Notes under the pieces: generated by a model | What the model saw: the letters and a program-made list of their open reading frames with translations, nothing else | Told to the model about the DNA's origin: nothing | The model's database searches: none | Translations under genes and position numbers: made by a program | Part shown: positions 6,204 through 28,990 of the stretch, piece by piece | Position numbering within the stretch: the stretch's first letter is position 1 | Layout of the letters: the number at the start of each line of letters is the position of its first letter | Assembly: GCA_014055465.1 (NCBI GenBank) | Contig: WIAF01000001.1 | Span: 248,001-312,000, forward strand | Source: Nitrospira sp. CR1.1 | GTDB taxonomy: Bacteria; Nitrospirota; Nitrospiria; Nitrospirales; Nitrospiraceae | DNA length: 64,000 nucleotides | Direction: 5' to 3'

Positions 6204-6692
6204 TTATGAATGACGGAGTTTATATTCCAAGTGACAGGCGACACAGGCTTTGAGCACATTGTTGAACTCGGGCAGGATCTGCTTCAGATCTTTCGTCGGC
6301 ATCACATCGGCCAACTTCTCGGCAGCCGCATGGTGCGCCATCGCGAGATCGTGATAGGCCGGCGGAACATCAGCCGGTTCCTGCCGCGCCATGGCGTACC
6401 GGTGCATAAAGAACCCCAGATGCGATTCCGTCAGGCCCTGCGCCAATCGATAGTCTTCCTCGGCCAGCGCCGCGACAATCGCCTGAACCGTTTCCAAATG
6501 CTGGTGCATGACGGCGCGATGCTCCAGCCGCGCGGCGTCCCCCAGCGGAATCGGCGTTCGCACGTCCGGCAGGTGCACGGGCGTCACTCCCGTCGCAGAT
6601 ACGGGCTTCTGCTCCACGCACCCGGTCACGAAACACAGCGTCACGAACAGGCAGGACAGCCCCGCCCGCAACCTCATTCGCTCGCAATTCAT
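6204..6692 (-). CDS. Cytochrome c'-like lipoprotein
   Basis: A 162-residue lipoprotein (lipobox VTGC, Cys25) with one C-terminal heme site, CVACH at residues 150-154, followed by LEYKLRHS. The C-terminal heme after a helical region (LETVQAIVAALAEED, MAHHAAAEKLADVM) matches cytochrome c', whose members bind NO or CO. The ATG lies inside the upstream oxidoreductase beta gene: ATGA overlap at 6689-6692, so it is translationally coupled. The frame extends far upstream, but only this start gives a signal peptide. Confidence 0.82.
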   Translation of the reverse strand: MNCERMRLRAGLSCLFVTLCFVTGCVEQKPVSATGVTPVHLPDVRTPIPLGDAARLEHRAVMHQHLETVQAIVAALAEEDYRLAQGLTESHLGFFMHRYAMARQEPADVPPAYHDLAMAHHAAAEKLADVMPTKDLKQILPEFNNVLKACVACHLEYKLRHS

Positions 6693-7627
6693 ATCTGCTC
6701 CTGTGCCGCCTGGCGCCAATAGGCATCCACCCGTTCTTGGATGTGACGAATGGCGTTCGTTTGCGGCATCGGCTCGAATAGATGTCGAAAACGTCCCTGC
6801 AGTTGCAGATAGGCCTCCACTGGTTTGCGCTTTGGAATATACGTGTGGGTGACCACCCCGTTGACGGCCTCCTTCAGCGGCCAGAGGCCGGTCTCCACGG
6901 CCAACCTGGCGACCTCCGGCGTGGCCCCCGGATCGTACAACCAGCCGGTCGGGCAAGCAGAGAGGGCGAGAAACATTTTCGGGCCGGCGAACGTGGCCGC
7001 CCGTGCGAACTTCTCCTCCAAATCCAACGGATACCGTGGGGAGACCGTCGCGAGGTAGGGCGGCCGATGCGCGCGCCAAATCTCGAAGAGGTCTTTCTTC
7101 TCCTGAGTCGTTGCGGCGGGATGCTGCAGACTGCAGGGCGACGTGGCCGTTCGCGCGGCGTAGGGGGTGGCGGGGGACAACTGCATGCCGGTGTTGCCGT
7201 AGGCTTCGTTGTCGTAACAGATGTAATAAAAGTCGAGCCGGCGATTCATGGCCCCGGAGGTTGATGACAAGGCCATATCGTACGTGGAGCCATCCCCTCC
7301 CAGCACGACGACTTTGAGATCTTCGCTCTTCGGCAGTCTCCCCTTGGCAATCAGCACATCCAAGGCATCGCGAATTCCCTGCGCGCCGGCCGGCGCCGAG
7401 CCCATGGTCGTATACAACCACGACCCCTTGAATGAGGTGTAGGGATAGGCCGCCAACATAGTAAAGCAACCGGCGGCATTCACATAGACGACATGATCAC
7501 CCAACACCTTCGCCGCGAGCCGCAAGGCTTCGAGGCCCCCGCACCCGGCGCACAAGGCCGTGCCCGGCAGCACATGCTCTTCCCGTGGAATCTGTTTGAT
7601 CTTCTTGAACGTCTCCCGCTGCCACAT
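6689..7627 (-). CDS. 2-oxoacid:ferredoxin oxidoreductase, beta subunit
   Basis: The 312-residue thiamine-diphosphate subunit of a pyruvate/2-oxoglutarate:ferredoxin oxidoreductase. It shows CAGCGG near residue 26 and the TPP/Mg motif GGDGSTYDM continuing to DNEAYGNTGMQ. In reductive-TCA bacteria this enzyme carboxylates acetyl-CoA or succinyl-CoA using reduced ferredoxin; pyruvate and 2-oxoglutarate specificity cannot be told apart here. It comes after the alpha subunit (78-base spacer full of CGTGAA-like repeats) and overlaps the next cytochrome gene by four bases. Confidence 0.9.
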   Translation of the reverse strand: MWQRETFKKIKQIPREEHVLPGTALCAGCGGLEALRLAAKVLGDHVVYVNAAGCFTMLAAYPYTSFKGSWLYTTMGSAPAGAQGIRDALDVLIAKGRLPKSEDLKVVVLGGDGSTYDMALSSTSGAMNRRLDFYYICYDNEAYGNTGMQLSPATPYAARTATSPCSLQHPAATTQEKKDLFEIWRAHRPPYLATVSPRYPLDLEEKFARAATFAGPKMFLALSACPTGWLYDPGATPEVARLAVETGLWPLKEAVNGVVTHTYIPKRKPVEAYLQLQGRFRHLFEPMPQTNAIRHIQERVDAYWRQAAQEQI

Positions 7628-7755
7628 GGCGTCTCTTGTCTCTCGTGAAGCGTCTCGCGTGGTTCACGTTGTCCGTTTCACGTCTTGCGTCTTGCGTTTC
7701 ACACGTCACGTTTGACTTTTCACGTTTTCGGTTTCACCGTTCACGGTTCCCGCCG
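7628..7755. repeat. Degenerate CGTGAA-type spacer repeats
   Basis: Between the alpha and beta oxidoreductase genes the minus strand is a chain of near copies of CGTGAAACG/GTGAAAAG/ACGTGA words. The repeat also encodes the last dozen residues of the alpha subunit. Similar words occur at 12606-12650, 19285-19335 and 51500-51540, always in spacers. Origin unknown; it may be slippage-derived. Confidence 0.5.
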
Positions 7756-24696: not shown

Positions 24697-25707
24697 TCAG
24701 CGGCCGCCCATCCCATGTTGCGCCATGGCGACATCGAGGGAACGCGCCGACTGGAATTCAGCCGCTGCAGCATTCAGATACTGCGTGACCGACGCTGTAT
24801 CCCGACCCAGACGCGCGAGTGTCTTCATGACTCGATCCGGACCGCTCCACTCGCTCCACCACACCCCCCGCATTTCCATCACCGCGGCCGAAGCGGGCGC
24901 GGGAGCCAGGAGATCGCGCGCGAGGCTACGGACCGGCATGCGCTCGTAAATGTCGCGAAGGACTTGCGGCTCCTTCGGCGTATTGATCACCTGGGCGAGC
25001 CGTTCGAAGAGTGTCATCATCTCCGGCAGGACTCGATGCCCCAGGCGCCACAACAGTTCGACATGTCCGGCCATGACGCAGGTGCTCCACACTGCCCCCG
25101 ACGCATAGGCCAGCCGCGCCAATTGAGGCTCCGGGTTGTGCAAGAACGTGTTGACCGCCCGGACTGAGCGGAGGCCGAGCCTGACCAATTCCTGACCGGA
25201 GGTGATCCAGCCATACTCTGTGTCCGGTGCATCCGGGCGCGCGGCGAGCACGACCACTTTCTCCGGCAGCTTCTCGGCTGCACGGATCGCATACAGTGTC
25301 TCCCCGAGAAACCGTTCCTCGGGGTAGACAAACTGATTGGCCGGAGCAATCAGCACCGTCCCCTCCGGATCGCGCGCGCGGATATAGGTCAAGGGCAGGA
25401 ATAATCCGGCCGCTGTGCCGGCATTGCGCGGCTGCACCAGGACCATGCCCGGATTCCGTTCGCCGATTTGCGGCCAGGCCTCCTGATGACCGCGCCCGAC
25501 CACCACCAGCGTGCGGGCAGGGCTCGTGACGCTGAACGTACGGTCGAGCGTATGCTGGAAGACAGACCTCGTCCCCAAAAATCGACAATAGTGGTTCGGA
25601 ATCGTCCGGCCTACCCACCTCTTCACGGCCGGCTGCATCCGGACTCCGTCTCCTCCCGCAAGTACGATCGACCACCGCCGTCCGAGTTGATCCCTTCCCT
25701 CTCGCAT
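24697..25707 (-). CDS. Sugar-1-phosphate nucleotidyltransferase-like protein, divergent
   Basis: A 336-residue protein resembling mannose-1-phosphate guanylyltransferases: the nucleotide loop LAGGDGVRM near residue 18, then QPRNAGTAAGLFLPL, APANQFV and EYGWI further on. The canonical PK(Q)F substrate motif is replaced by IPNHYCRF, so the usual catalytic lysine is missing. It may act on an unusual substrate or have lost transferase activity. The start at 25707 excludes an upstream region with no similarity. A small membrane protein gene lies 112 bases upstream on the same strand. Confidence 0.7.
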   Translation of the reverse strand: MREGRDQLGRRWSIVLAGGDGVRMQPAVKRWVGRTIPNHYCRFLGTRSVFQHTLDRTFSVTSPARTLVVVGRGHQEAWPQIGERNPGMVLVQPRNAGTAAGLFLPLTYIRARDPEGTVLIAPANQFVYPEERFLGETLYAIRAAEKLPEKVVVLAARPDAPDTEYGWITSGQELVRLGLRSVRAVNTFLHNPEPQLARLAYASGAVWSTCVMAGHVELLWRLGHRVLPEMMTLFERLAQVINTPKEPQVLRDIYERMPVRSLARDLLAPAPASAAVMEMRGVWWSEWSGPDRVMKTLARLGRDTASVTQYLNAAAAEFQSARSLDVAMAQHGMGGR

Positions 25708-25819: not shown

Positions 25820-25930
25820 TTACTCGGATAAATCGAGCAGGGACAGGCCCCAGAAGACCATGCTCCCAATCGCGGCCATGACGACCACCATCAGCAACAG
25901 AGCCGGCGCCAAGGTGAGGATCTGTTTCAT
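25820..25930 (-). CDS. 36-residue single-span membrane protein
   Basis: This short frame codes for MKQILTLAPALLLMVVVMAA continued by a GSMVFWGLSLLDLSE end: one hydrophobic helix with a basic N-terminus and acidic C-terminus. A strong AAAGGAGG Shine-Dalgarno is five to six bases upstream of the ATG. About 100 bases upstream lies a palindromic operator-like site (26024-26046) that is also found upstream of the CusR-like regulator. Function is unknown; small single-span proteins often regulate a transporter or kinase. Confidence 0.6.
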   Translation of the reverse strand: MKQILTLAPALLLMVVVMAAIGSMVFWGLSLLDLSE

Positions 25931-26023
25931 CGCATCCTCCTTTCTGTAGGTGGTCTTTCGTGGAGCCACACCAATTCCATTCCGTCACCATACTTTAGCC
26001 GGACAAGATGAATGGCTGATGAA

Positions 26024-26046
26024 CAGAGCATGAAGAATTCTTCATG
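26024..26046 (-). promoter_or_regulatory. Candidate response-regulator operator, copy 1
   Basis: On the minus strand the site reads CATGAAGAATTCTTCATG (a perfect palindrome, extended to 22 bases by AG/CT) followed by N5 and TTCATC. The TTCATG and TTCATC half-sites are 11 bases apart, the phase expected for OmpR-family tandem binding. Copy 2 at 28326-28354 matches it in 17 of the 18 palindrome bases and in the third half-site. It lies about 100 bases upstream of the 36-residue membrane protein gene. Confidence 0.65.
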
Positions 26047-26131
26047 CTGAAGCGCGGCGCCGATGGACGAGGGGAATAGAGGAATCAGACAGGGCGCGAG
26101 AACGCAGAAGACGACCAGTCCGGATGAACGG

Positions 26132-27556
26132 CTATGCGTGGATGGCGGGGAACGTCAACATGAAGACCGACCCCTTGCCCACTTCGCTCTCCACGGCGAT
26201 GGCGCCATGGTGAGCCTCCACAATTTCTTTCACGAGGGGGAGGCCGAGACCATGCCCGCCTGAATCCCTGGCGCGAGCCGGGTCGGTCCGGTAAAAAGGT
26301 TCAAAGAGATGCGGCAGGTGTTCGCGGGCAATTCCCTGCCCGGTGTCTCGAATCGCGACATGCACGTGATTTTGCGCGCCGCTGAGGCATAACGCCACGG
26401 TGCCTCCCGGATCGGTGTACCGCAAGGCGTTATCCAGCAGATTGATGAAGACCTGCTTGAGCCGTTCGGCATCACCCAACACCGGCTGCACCGGTTCTTC
26501 TTCCAGCACCAATGTCAGCCGCCGATCCTCCGCGACCGGAGTGAGGTCATCGATCAATTCTTTCAGCAGCGGCTGGAGCGTCAGGACCGACAGCTCTACC
26601 GGCGGCCGCTCGCCGGCAAATCGGGCGAGCGTCAGCAGCGAACGGGTCAGGACGATGAGGCGTTGCACTTGTTCGAGATTCGAAACCAGTACGTCACGAT
26701 AGTCGTCGGCCGATCGCGAGCGCTGCAACGCAACTTCGAGGTTGCCCTGCATCACTGTCAGCGGGGTTTTCATCTCATGCGCGGCATAATCGGTAAAGCG
26801 TCGCTGGCTCTCGGAGGCCCGCTGCAACCGGTCCAGCATGGCATTAAATGCCTGGGCCAGCCGCTCGAATTCTTCAAACGGCGCATTCAGATTGACTCGC
26901 GAGCGCAGGGCCGACACGGAAATACTCTCAGCGGTGCGACTCAAGGCTTCCACCGGACCGAGCACTTTCCGGGCCAGCCAACCGCTGCCGAACCAGGATG
27001 TGACCAGGACGGCGACCGATCCGAGCATGAGCAACCCCATAAGACTCCGATGGGTTCTGCGAAAAAACGCCAGGGATTCTTCGGCCTGCAGCAGGTATCG
27101 CACATCGGCCTGCTGCCGGATCGGAACAAACACCCGTCGCACCAACGCCCCCGAGTCCATCTCGACCGTCTCATACACCACTTCGCCCCGTTTGCCCCGC
27201 GCCAGCACCCCCTCCTCCACCGACGGTCTTGGCACCACGGCGCTGCCCTGCCAGACGACCGTGCCATCGAGGCCCAGGATATGGACGGAGTGCGAGACCT
27301 CGCGGAGTTCCTTCATCCGGTCGTCGGCCACTTGCGCGCCGCGCGGGACCACGATCTCATGGTCAGACCGCGTCAGAAGTTCCGGTCGTTGCTCGATCAA
27401 CTCGGCCAGGGTATCAGCGAAGCCGAACAATCGGCCGTCCACGTATTGCTGCAGCAGACTATGAAATCCTGTGTAGACGGCCACGTTGAATCCGCCCAGC
27501 AAGGCCGCGATCAAGGCCACCGTATACAACCGGAACTGGGCGCGAAAGCTGCTCAT
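26132..27556 (-). CDS. CusS-like sensor histidine kinase
   Basis: A 474-residue membrane kinase: TM1 about 10-30, periplasmic sensor about 31-165, TM2 about 170-190, HAMP about 190-245, H-box FTDYAAHEMKTPL with His260, and an HATPase domain (NLLDNALRY, DTGQGI, GGHGLGLPLV). It belongs to the heavy-metal sensor kinase type by architecture, but the sensor lacks an obvious metal-binding His/Met cluster, so the signal is unknown. Its start overlaps the regulator gene stop by four bases (27553-27556). Confidence 0.88.
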   Translation of the reverse strand: MSSFRAQFRLYTVALIAALLGGFNVAVYTGFHSLLQQYVDGRLFGFADTLAELIEQRPELLTRSDHEIVVPRGAQVADDRMKELREVSHSVHILGLDGTVVWQGSAVVPRPSVEEGVLARGKRGEVVYETVEMDSGALVRRVFVPIRQQADVRYLLQAEESLAFFRRTHRSLMGLLMLGSVAVLVTSWFGSGWLARKVLGPVEALSRTAESISVSALRSRVNLNAPFEEFERLAQAFNAMLDRLQRASESQRRFTDYAAHEMKTPLTVMQGNLEVALQRSRSADDYRDVLVSNLEQVQRLIVLTRSLLTLARFAGERPPVELSVLTLQPLLKELIDDLTPVAEDRRLTLVLEEEPVQPVLGDAERLKQVFINLLDNALRYTDPGGTVALCLSGAQNHVHVAIRDTGQGIAREHLPHLFEPFYRTDPARARDSGGHGLGLPLVKEIVEAHHGAIAVESEVGKGSVFMLTFPAIHA

Positions 27557-28227
27557 TCACTCGCCTCCAGCTTGTAGCCCACCCCGCGCACCGTGGCGAT
27601 CAACGGCAGGGCGAAATCCCGGTCGATCTTGACGCGCAAGGAGCGGATGTACACATCCACCACATTCGTCATCGGATCATAGTTCAATCCCCACACACGC
27701 TCCAGAATCGCCGTGCGGGTGAGCACGATATCGCGGTTCCGCAGAAGAAATTCCAACAGGGAAAATTCTTTGCTCGTGAGCGCAATTTCCTTCCCGCCCC
27801 GCCACACCCGTCGGGAGGCCGGGTCCATCTCGAGATCGTGAGCCTTCAGACGGCTGCCGATATGCGGCCCCCCTCGCCGCAGCAGAGCTCTGATGCGTGC
27901 GACCAGCTCCGTAAACGCAAACGGTTTCGTCAAATAATCATCCGCACCGGCATCCAGGCCGGCGACCTTATCCTCCACCGAATCGCGCGCGGTCAGCAAA
28001 AGAATCGGACAACGGTTCCCGCGTTCACGAAGTCGCCGGCACAGGGCCAACCCGTCCACCTTGGGCAACATCACGTCCACGATCAACAGATCGTAACTGT
28101 CATCCGCGGCCAACATGAATCCTGTTTCGCCGTCGGCGGCCATCTCCACCGTATGCCGCTCCTCTTCCAGTCCCTTACGAAGGAATTGCGCCAGATCGGC
28201 GTCGTCTTCGATGACCAGAATTCGCAT
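27553..28227 (-). CDS. OmpR-family response regulator, CusR-like
   Basis: A 224-residue regulator: receiver domain with acidic pocket E7/D8 and phospho-acceptor D51 (LLIVDVMLPK), T in LLTARD and K in LTKPF; winged-helix C-terminal domain about 125-222 (LTSKEFSLLEFLL, DVYIRSLRVKID, VRGVGYKL). It pairs with the coupled kinase. An operator-like site about 100 bases upstream (28326-28354) recurs at 26024-26046, so autoregulation and control of the small membrane protein are likely. Confidence 0.9.
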   Translation of the reverse strand: MRILVIEDDADLAQFLRKGLEEERHTVEMAADGETGFMLAADDSYDLLIVDVMLPKVDGLALCRRLRERGNRCPILLLTARDSVEDKVAGLDAGADDYLTKPFAFTELVARIRALLRRGGPHIGSRLKAHDLEMDPASRRVWRGGKEIALTSKEFSLLEFLLRNRDIVLTRTAILERVWGLNYDPMTNVVDVYIRSLRVKIDRDFALPLIATVRGVGYKLEASE

Positions 28228-28325
28228 GCATGCCTCGTGTCCTGCGCATCCCTCCGGCCCGAACAGGGACCCTCGTCCCGCGCAATAGCGCCATCATATC
28301 AGGGAGCAAGCGGCGGTTTCGCCTT

Positions 28326-28354
28326 CATGAAGACTTCTTCATGTGGTCTTCATC
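28326..28354 (+). promoter_or_regulatory. Candidate response-regulator operator, copy 2
   Basis: CATGAAGACTTCTTCATG followed by N5 and TTCATC on the plus strand. It differs from copy 1 in one of 18 palindrome bases and has the same 11-base step between TTCATG and TTCATC. It is about 100 bases upstream of the response regulator gene (minus strand) and 49 bases upstream of a possible small plus-strand gene at 28392. Confidence 0.65.
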
Positions 28355-28391
28355 CATATCTCATGTGCGGATCCGATCGAGGAGGCGGGCG

Positions 28392-28517
28392 ATGACGACT
28401 GCCGCGGCAGAACGGGAGGAGGCCGCACACACGACCGGACGCAAGGCGGGGGATTACCAGAATGTCATGCTCGACCTCGCCATCTGTGTCACGCCCCACA
28501 ACAGAAAGAGGCCATAG
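28392..28517 (+). CDS. Possible small protein divergent from the response regulator
   Basis: A 41-codon frame starting MTTAAAEREEAAHTTGRK with a GAGGAGGCGGG Shine-Dalgarno in front of the ATG. It begins 49 bases after the TTCATG operator, on the strand to which that copy points. Its last 64 bases overlap the 3' end of the membrane protein gene at 28454 in antisense. There is no signal peptide, no known motif and no similarity that I recognise, so this is a weak call. Confidence 0.22.
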   Translation: MTTAAAEREEAAHTTGRKAGDYQNVMLDLAICVTPHNRKRP

Positions 28518-28990
28518 ACCGTGCCGAAAAACCAGGGGAAGCTGATCGCCCGATGCGCCCACCACTGGCGATGTTGACGGAACGCCCAGGAGGGCGCGAA
28601 CGTGCGCGGCTCATTCGTTTCATCCACAATCGTTTCACGATGTTCGCGCAGCCGGTAGAGACTGCTGACCGGTTTCCGGTCCTGCCAGTCCGGCATGGAT
28701 TCAATGCCCCGCAGTTGCCATTCCCACAAGGCGTTCTGCCCGGAAAACCGGCCCAGGACAATCGCCATCTGCGCGCTCATAAGAATGCCGATGGTGCTCA
28801 GCAACACAATGACCAGCGTGAAGGGCAAGGCCAGGGATTCACGCGACACGAGTAACCCGATGACGGCGACAAAAATGGAATTGGCCGTCAGATAATCCGA
28901 CAACATGGTGTGGTAATCCCGCACGCCGGAGGTCCAGAGCGTCAAGAGATGATTGTAGTCGGACTGCATGGTGTCGTGATTCTGAGCCAT
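28454..28990 (-). CDS. Four-helix membrane protein of unknown function
   Basis: A 178-residue protein with two adjacent hydrophobic helices (about 34-52 and 57-77) and two more near the C-terminus (about 148-170). The N-terminus (DYNHLLTLWTSGVRDYHTML) and the central soluble part (RETIVDETNEPRTF) are charged. The arrangement resembles small RipA-like octameric membrane proteins, but I do not recognise it with confidence. It starts four bases after the glucan phosphorylase stop, so it is likely co-transcribed. Confidence 0.65.
   Translation of the reverse strand: MAQNHDTMQSDYNHLLTLWTSGVRDYHTMLSDYLTANSIFVAVIGLLVSRESLALPFTLVIVLLSTIGILMSAQMAIVLGRFSGQNALWEWQLRGIESMPDWQDRKPVSSLYRLREHRETIVDETNEPRTFAPSWAFRQHRQWWAHRAISFPWFFGTVYGLFLLWGVTQMARSSMTFW

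Follow-up and report, generated by a model that had tools for sequence, protein, structure and literature searches.

Conserved composite operators flanking a CusR/AgrR-like two-component system in Nitrospira, with a gene for a tiny membrane protein as predicted target

Introduction

Escherichia coli CusR binds the palindrome AAAATGACAAnnTTGTCATTTT (PMC11195947), and the AgrR box of Cupriavidus metallidurans combines a 6-4-6 inverted repeat with in-phase direct repeats, AgrR working through class II activation and autoregulation (PMC7380067); these and the other comparisons with published systems below follow excerpts of the cited papers. Here we describe two sites of this known architectural kind on a 64,000-nucleotide stretch of Nitrospira sp. 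CR1.1 (contig WIAF01000001.1, positions 248,001 to 312,000; hereafter the window), where they flank the genes for a sensor histidine kinase and an OmpR-family response regulator. One site precedes sm36, which encodes a membrane protein of 36 amino acids (aa), and the other precedes the regulator gene. The operator pair is real and well conserved, and the regulon is a well-supported prediction. We propose that both sites are composite operators of the adjacent regulator, a reading that, taken as a whole and with its predicted binding, we regard as likely. Two points go further than the original prediction for this DNA, made from its letters alone: the tiny-protein output across genera, and the presence in relatives of the shared operator ahead of a gene linked to amoC.

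The titles and abstract starts of the open-licence literature yielded little on how Nitrospira controls genes in response to signals, and no description of this operator for Nitrospira or comammox regulators, CusR or amoC control. An operator with its likely regulator and targets makes a directly testable circuit. Tiny membrane proteins are of a size often missed by gene finders, and sm36 is both conserved and a predicted target.

Two rare composite sites

In both sites, two direct half-sites, placed in steps of 11 bp, come after a dyad. Site 1 reads CATGAAGAATTCTTCATG-N5-TTCATC-N5-TTCATC on the minus strand, from 26046 down to 26007, and site 2 reads CATGAAGACTTCTTCATG-N5-TTCATC-N5-CTCATG on the plus strand, from 28326 to 28365. 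The parts are as follows.

26029..26046, minus strand: operator 1 dyad, 18 bp, perfect, CATGAAGAATTCTTCATG, with the 6-4-6 core ATGAAG-AATT-CTTCAT
26018..26023, minus strand: operator 1, half-site 2, TTCATC, at an 11-bp step, over the expected -35 position
26007..26012, minus strand: operator 1, half-site 3, TTCATC, ending 9 bp before the -10-like hexamer
28326..28343, plus strand: operator 2 dyad, 18 bp, CATGAAGACTTCTTCATG, symmetric except for the central pair, upstream of the regulator gene
28349..28354, plus strand: operator 2, half-site 2, TTCATC, in an array directed away from the regulator gene
28360..28365, plus strand: operator 2, half-site 3, CTCATG

At each site, 98 bp separate the dyad from the start codon of its gene (start codons at 25930 and 28227), in agreement with the original prediction of a near-identical pair of sites around the two-component system, each about 100 bases from a gene start. 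Its coordinates were exact for the second site (28326-28354) and slightly off for the first, where the dyad-N5-TTCATC unit occupies 26018-26046 of the minus strand, and both arrays are longer than it had described, with a third half-site after another 5-bp spacer.

A dyad search of the window at up to three mismatches gave four strand matches, far above the 100 shuffles (mean 0.04, maximum 1). Across the whole 4.44-Mb genome, CATGAAGANTTCTTCATG is matched without mismatch only at the two operator places, and the next-best matches are three places with two mismatches each. A two-mismatch place on contig C11 was rejected as a further operator, since it reads by eye as coding sequence (M-T-P-E-E-F-F-M). 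Three TTCAT half-sites at 11-bp steps, with at most one mismatch, likewise occur genome-wide only at both operators, and the backwards pattern gave none. The motif is thus rare in the genome, and the orthologs in same-genus genomes have it conserved in their upstream regions, the two points on which the original prediction had made itself depend.

The palindromes might instead be dispersed-repeat copies, or RNA hairpins serving as terminator or attenuator downstream of the kinase gene. Site 1 does fold, at -12.8 kcal/mol (z -1.98), and the two strands of site 2 have z-scores of -1.95 and -1.60. However, conserved half-sites lie outside the stem, no T-tract terminator was found there, and the sites lie upstream of conserved -10-like elements. 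On the first two of these grounds the hairpin or terminator was rejected, and a repeat origin of the dyads was dropped as the genome holds only two copies, so we consider this whole explanation extremely improbable.

Similarity of the sites to the AgrR box lies in the 16-bp 6-4-6 inverted repeat, the in-phase direct half-site repeats and an OmpR-family regulator, and the reported class II activation and autoregulation match those predicted here (PMC7380067). The half-sites, ATKACA there and ATGAAG here, agree at 4/6 positions, whereas most of the copies aligned here have a pair of tandem half-sites in steps of 11 bp, and the AgrR targets are silver/copper resistance genes rather than, as predicted here, genes for a tiny membrane protein and a transferase-like protein (PMC7380067). 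The E. coli CusR site shares the 16-bp ATGA-N8-TCAT frame, whereas the inner bases differ (PMC11195947). As in the excerpts on E. coli and Pseudomonas CusR, CopR and PcoR, the regulon is very small and a site adjoins the regulator gene (PMC11195947, PMC8249747, PMC7380067), but no efflux genes were seen beside the operator here among the neighbours scanned.

Conservation within the genus

Four genes, each encoded on the minus strand, are involved.

27553..28227, minus strand: OmpR-family response regulator, 224 aa, PF00072 and PF00486
26132..27556, minus strand: sensor histidine kinase, 474 aa, HAMP, HisKA and HATPase_c
25820..25930, minus strand: sm36, encoding a membrane protein of 36 aa with a single helix, MKQILTLAPALLLMVVVMAAIGSMVFWGLSLLDLSE; coordinates include the stop
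24697..25707, minus strand: nucleotidyltransferase-like protein, 336 aa from ATG, PF00483, with the PK lysine replaced by N in PNHY

The receiver and winged-helix (Trans_reg_C) domains of the regulator are matched above their gathering scores (PF00072, 2.4e-29; PF00486, 1.3e-25), which bears out its predicted OmpR-family membership. Among 61 genomes searched, 12 of the same genus have a regulator 88-95% identical to it. The kinase gene and a gene for an 8xMP-like membrane protein stand beside the regulator gene in all 12, and sm36 and the transferase gene are on the same stretch in 11. In the twelfth (G014) the contig ends, and the operator, sm36 and the transferase gene are found on another contig (L087) with the array present.

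We aligned 12 sm36 upstream regions lying on the same stretch as the kinase/regulator pair and 13 regulator upstream regions, the window included. The operator 1 dyad has no mismatch in 8 of the sm36 regions and 1, 4, 5 and 7 in the others, while the operator 2 dyad has at most three in 13/13 regulator regions (none in 5, one to three in the others). Half-site 2 of operator 1 is TTCATC or CTCATC, and half-site 3 TTCATC or TTCATG, in 12/12. Mean column conservation in the sm36 and regulator regions, respectively, is 0.91 and 0.92 for the dyad, 0.90 and 0.95 for half-site 2 and 0.87 and 0.82 for half-site 3, with the spacers and flanks at 0.53-0.68.

The sm36 orthologs are 58-81% identical in 11/12 same-genus stretches. 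Mean pS is 0.367 and mean pN 0.162 among 12 sequences, with pN below pS in 66/66 pairs, and sm36 is under protein-level selection.

In ten further same-genus genomes, the best regulator is just 66-68% identical, and the window's neighbour genes were not found beside it except for a distant Usp match in L062. Four of these genomes (G006, G016, G025, G027) carry a zero-mismatch dyad elsewhere, with a small membrane ORF and then the transferase gene behind it. A dyad stands before a small membrane ORF, with the kinase/regulator pair elsewhere, at L075, L077, L082, L084 and L135; sm36 orthologs are recognisable at L084 (G027) and, in a fifth genome, at L135 (G023), and an 8xMP-like gene is readable on the other side of the dyad at L075 and L077. 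Because operator and small protein persist where the pair lies elsewhere, they need no adjacent kinase pair.

Promoter layout and predicted mode of control

Two promoter elements were recognised.

25992..25997, minus strand: TAAAGT, -10-like hexamer for sm36, whose ATG lies 61 bp further on
28293..28298, minus strand: TATGAT, -10-like hexamer for the regulator gene, in the extended form TGA-TATGAT

The order of dyad, half-site, half-site, 9 bp and a TAnnnT-type hexamer (a lenient pattern) is kept at sm36 in 12/12 regions, the hexamer being TAGAGT in 6. At the regulator promoter, 27 bp lie between the dyad and TGA-TATGAT, with the tandem half-sites directed away from the gene; TGN-TATGAT follows the dyad by 25-27 bp in 12/13 regions, the exception being L050 with an altered hexamer. 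No sigma70-consensus promoter was found in the region, at sm36 or at the regulator gene, as expected for activator-dependent promoters. With half-site 2 over the expected -35 position and half-site 3 ending 9 bp from the -10-like hexamer, the sm36 layout most likely reflects class II activation; where the elements lie relative to transcription starts is deduced from the sequence.

A regulator that represses from these sites, or that represses its own gene while activating sm36, would fit the tandem half-sites facing opposite ways at the two promoters. We consider it unlikely, since the dyads do not cover the -10-like elements and are placed upstream of them, with deduced centres near -48 and -53, and since neither promoter has the sigma70 consensus.

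For activation by the adjacent regulator, both operators are very probably its binding sites, and we infer binding, activation, read-through and feedback as follows. The 16-bp inverted repeat of ATGAAG half-sites (6-4-6) would seat a symmetrical regulator dimer, and the two in-phase direct half-sites, at 11-bp steps, would seat a further dimer. Class II activation at sm36 would make transcription of the 36-aa membrane protein signal-dependent, and read-through from sm36 would transcribe the nucleotidyltransferase-like gene. At the regulator promoter, the dyad would act from upstream of the extended -10 element, probably giving positive autoregulation. The tiny membrane protein would most likely be a regulatory output acting on membrane partners and might plausibly exert feedback on the sensor kinase, much like MgrB on PhoQ. 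In PhoPQ-MgrB too, a two-component system switches on a tiny membrane protein gene, as predicted here (PMC2789325); we claim no sequence relation, sm36 being encoded next to the kinase and its kinase interaction putative. The MgrB-like traits seen in sm36 are its size, hydrophobicity and gene position.

The original prediction that the regulator controls the 36-aa membrane protein gene is strongly supported, as a prediction. Control of the nucleotidyltransferase-like gene, which it had also foreseen, gains support from relatives with the operator directly before the transferase gene.

The operator in the sister genus and the order

The dyad occurs with at most one mismatch in 53/146 genomes of the order, and the reversed pattern in 0/146. 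In the sister genus, the regulator is 62-68% identical in 64/79 genomes, and the best 30 of the 64 loci were examined. A composite operator with at most 6/29 mismatches lies within 450 bp after the kinase gene in 25 of the 30 (0/300 shuffles), and the remaining five have 7, 9, 12, 13 and 13 mismatches there. In 22/30 loci, the best operator on the stretch has a hydrophobic membrane ORF of 26-36 aa behind it, mostly at equal distance; the predicted control of a tiny membrane protein is therefore a wider feature. Elsewhere in the order, in other genera and families, regulator, kinase, operator and transferase succeed one another in this sequence (L162, L172, L173, L175), and the operator-transferase arrangement also occurs at L179. 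In these loci, about 90-100 bp separate the dyad from the probable start of the transferase gene, which would therefore be a direct target there.

The C-terminal DNA-binding region is conserved among these regulators. The dyad is present with at most one mismatch in 5/7 loci with 63-68%-identical regulators (L300-L305 and L312; six records titled Nitrospira and one Nitrosospira isolate CMX). An operator outside Nitrospira was not borne out, the dyad being found in 0/73 other loci with 49-58%-identical regulators.

A sister-genus operator ahead of a gene linked to amoC

In the sister genus, the composite operator also lies upstream of a gene for a 220-aa membrane-anchored protein without a Pfam or NCBIfam match (L147, L165, L167, L168, L182-L210), the -10-like end of the operator being mostly 20-40 bp from the start codon. 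Matches to this protein, including paralogs without the N-terminal helix, occur in 62/79 genomes. Among the best 30, the operator with at most 8/32 mismatches precedes the gene in 26; 600 mononucleotide shuffles never fell below 11. The misses are L194, L195, L197 and L211, although the L194 genome does have the site (L169), its start codon having been misplaced.

An AmoC gene (PF04896, 1.7e-104; above the NF041641 cut-off) is in the same stretch as the 220-aa gene in 23/30, including 21 of the 26 with operator. This amoC looks like the singleton amoC of comammox Nitrospira, because inspection by eye of the three larger stretches that were read revealed neither amoA nor amoB behind it. According to excerpts of a review, comammox Nitrospira carry a non-operonal singleton amoC, as appears to be the case here, and the singleton amoC of beta-proteobacterial ammonia oxidisers is stress-regulated; the difference is the predicted control by a CusR-type operator, and the amoC link concerns the genomes of relatives (PMC6311188). 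From its amoC genes, the sister genus appears to be comammox. The operator before the amoC-linked gene is a concrete candidate for control of the extra amoC copy in these relatives.

A circuit throughout the Nitrospirales, with tiny single-helix membrane proteins as standing outputs and a comammox-type capture of the operon of the 220-aa gene and singleton amoC, can be put forward only tentatively, with somewhat less than an even chance. If true, a spare ammonia monooxygenase subunit would answer the same envelope signal as the tiny membrane proteins, and these would act on the kinase or on membrane enzymes. Homology of the sister-genus tiny ORFs to the N-terminal helix of the 220-aa protein seemed likely by eye and was not supported: shuffled N-termini reached at least the median real score in 332/465 reported shuffles (540 made).

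Which regulator reads the operators

The sites could belong to another regulator, for instance a PepSY-linked paralogous or an unlinked one, their placement being incidental or a matter of cross-regulation. In G021, a PepSY-DUF2231 operon beside the gene for a regulator of about 62% identity has the same dyad in front of it. This dyad also lies in a near-identical stretch in G003 and, less exactly, near the paralogous pair in G057 and G126. Three genomes have the operator without an ortholog, and CusR, CopR and CzcR share one site (PMC11195947). Nevertheless, the only two sites in the window's genome both flank this kinase/regulator pair, in other genera the operator goes with the orthologous pair, as in the 25/30 sister-genus loci, and the PepSY-linked regulators belong to the same group as close paralogs. 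In view of the dyad in G021, the site may have more than one regulator as its reader, though ownership by another regulator seems to us quite improbable.

Besides G021 and this possible sharing, several further observations weigh against assigning the operators and their targets to the adjacent regulator. No dyad with up to three mismatches lies within 1.5 kb of the ten 66-68%-identical regulators (L019-L028), and G142, G173 and G176, with the operator before the 220-aa gene, gave no regulator match at E<=1e-85. The dyad is poor in 3/12 sm36 regions (4, 5 and 7 mismatches), with the direct half-sites intact there; at L051, a longer centre explains it by eye. From the kinase gene to the transferase-side operator is about 1.1-1.3 kb in L172, L173 and L175, and read-through is not certain over the 112 bp between sm36 and the transferase gene in the window. 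The MgrB-like role of sm36 is an analogy only. All counts, moreover, come from related genomes, which are non-independent observations, and are to be read so.

Autoregulation, also part of the original prediction, is supported for the close-ortholog genomes, where all 13 regulator regions have the dyad at up to three mismatches. It fits less well with tandem half-sites that face away from the gene, in an orientation opposite to that before sm36, and with the sister genus, where 1/30 regulator regions has a near operator (7/29 mismatches) and the rest have 10-14. As the operator is nearly absent before the sister-genus regulator, autoregulation through this site would be a local feature.

Metal sensing

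The original prediction had called the system CusRS-like. The operator architecture and the kinase/regulator core justify the name, whereas both proteins score below the heavy-metal cut-offs: the best-scoring NCBIfam models are TIGR01387 (CzcR/SilR/CopR) for the regulator, with 258.8 bits against a cut-off of 279.2, and TIGR01386 (CzcS/SilS/CopS) for the kinase, with 258.9 against 292.55. No metal-resistance family was found among the family-scanned neighbours (8xMP-like, Usp, GreA/Rnk, transferase-like), the others being read as translations. The best match of the sensor region to solved chains is weak (E 0.16). The metal ligands of CusS include H42, F43, H176 and a Met triad (PMC10100754); one histidine beside each membrane segment, recalling H42 and H176, is kept in the three same-genus kinases aligned and in none of L162, L163 and L172. 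Metal (copper) sensing by this system has no clear support, and we call the system CusR/AgrR-like in mechanism without counting it among the metal-sensing group.

The transferase-like protein

The transferase-like protein matches PF00483 (NTP_transferase) with 29.1 against 21.2 bits and scores 49.2 against TIGR01479, below its cut-off of 372.95. We take GGxGxR...PK to be the active-site signature of sugar-phosphate nucleotidyltransferases, with a role for its lysine. The window's protein has GGDGVR...PNHY, and the PK lysine is missing. Among 15 aligned sequences, PKQY is kept in five members (L049, L051-L054) and in L066; the lysine is missing, in PNHY-type variants, in six besides the window, and L075 and L077 are altered further. 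Other genera, and a sister clade within the genus, have the PKQY signature intact. Because the gene is kept behind the operator despite the lost active-site lysine, the pattern suggests a non-catalytic or altered role in this clade.

Other observations

Paralogous kinase/regulator pairs with the same dyad type and 11-bp half-sites nearby are seen at L069 (about 6773-7746), L143, L068 (about 9459) and L174, with PepSY and DUF2231 genes in L069 and a PepSY-like gene in L174. Tiny hydrophobic ORFs of 26-36 aa follow the kinase-side operator at L163, L164 and L272-L298. L164 has two operators after the kinase gene (6904-6921 and 7435-7452), the second before a 27-aa hydrophobic ORF, and operator pairs about 530-580 bp apart after the kinase gene occur there and in G062, G102 and G146. 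At L166, a dyad (6334-6351) lies upstream of a 26-aa hydrophobic ORF near a gene for a large membrane protein, which presumably resembles a nucleoside transporter; similar sites are found at L148, L150 and L152.

In the window, a 41-aa ORF (28392-28517, plus strand) with a strong ribosome-site-like GAGGAGG overlaps the end of the 8xMP-like gene on the opposite strand. This ORF, faced by the operator 2 array, was dropped as a target, as it is not kept in relatives by eye. The 178-aa membrane protein (28454-28990, minus strand) has a sub-threshold match to the 8xMP family, with 27.3 against 30 bits.

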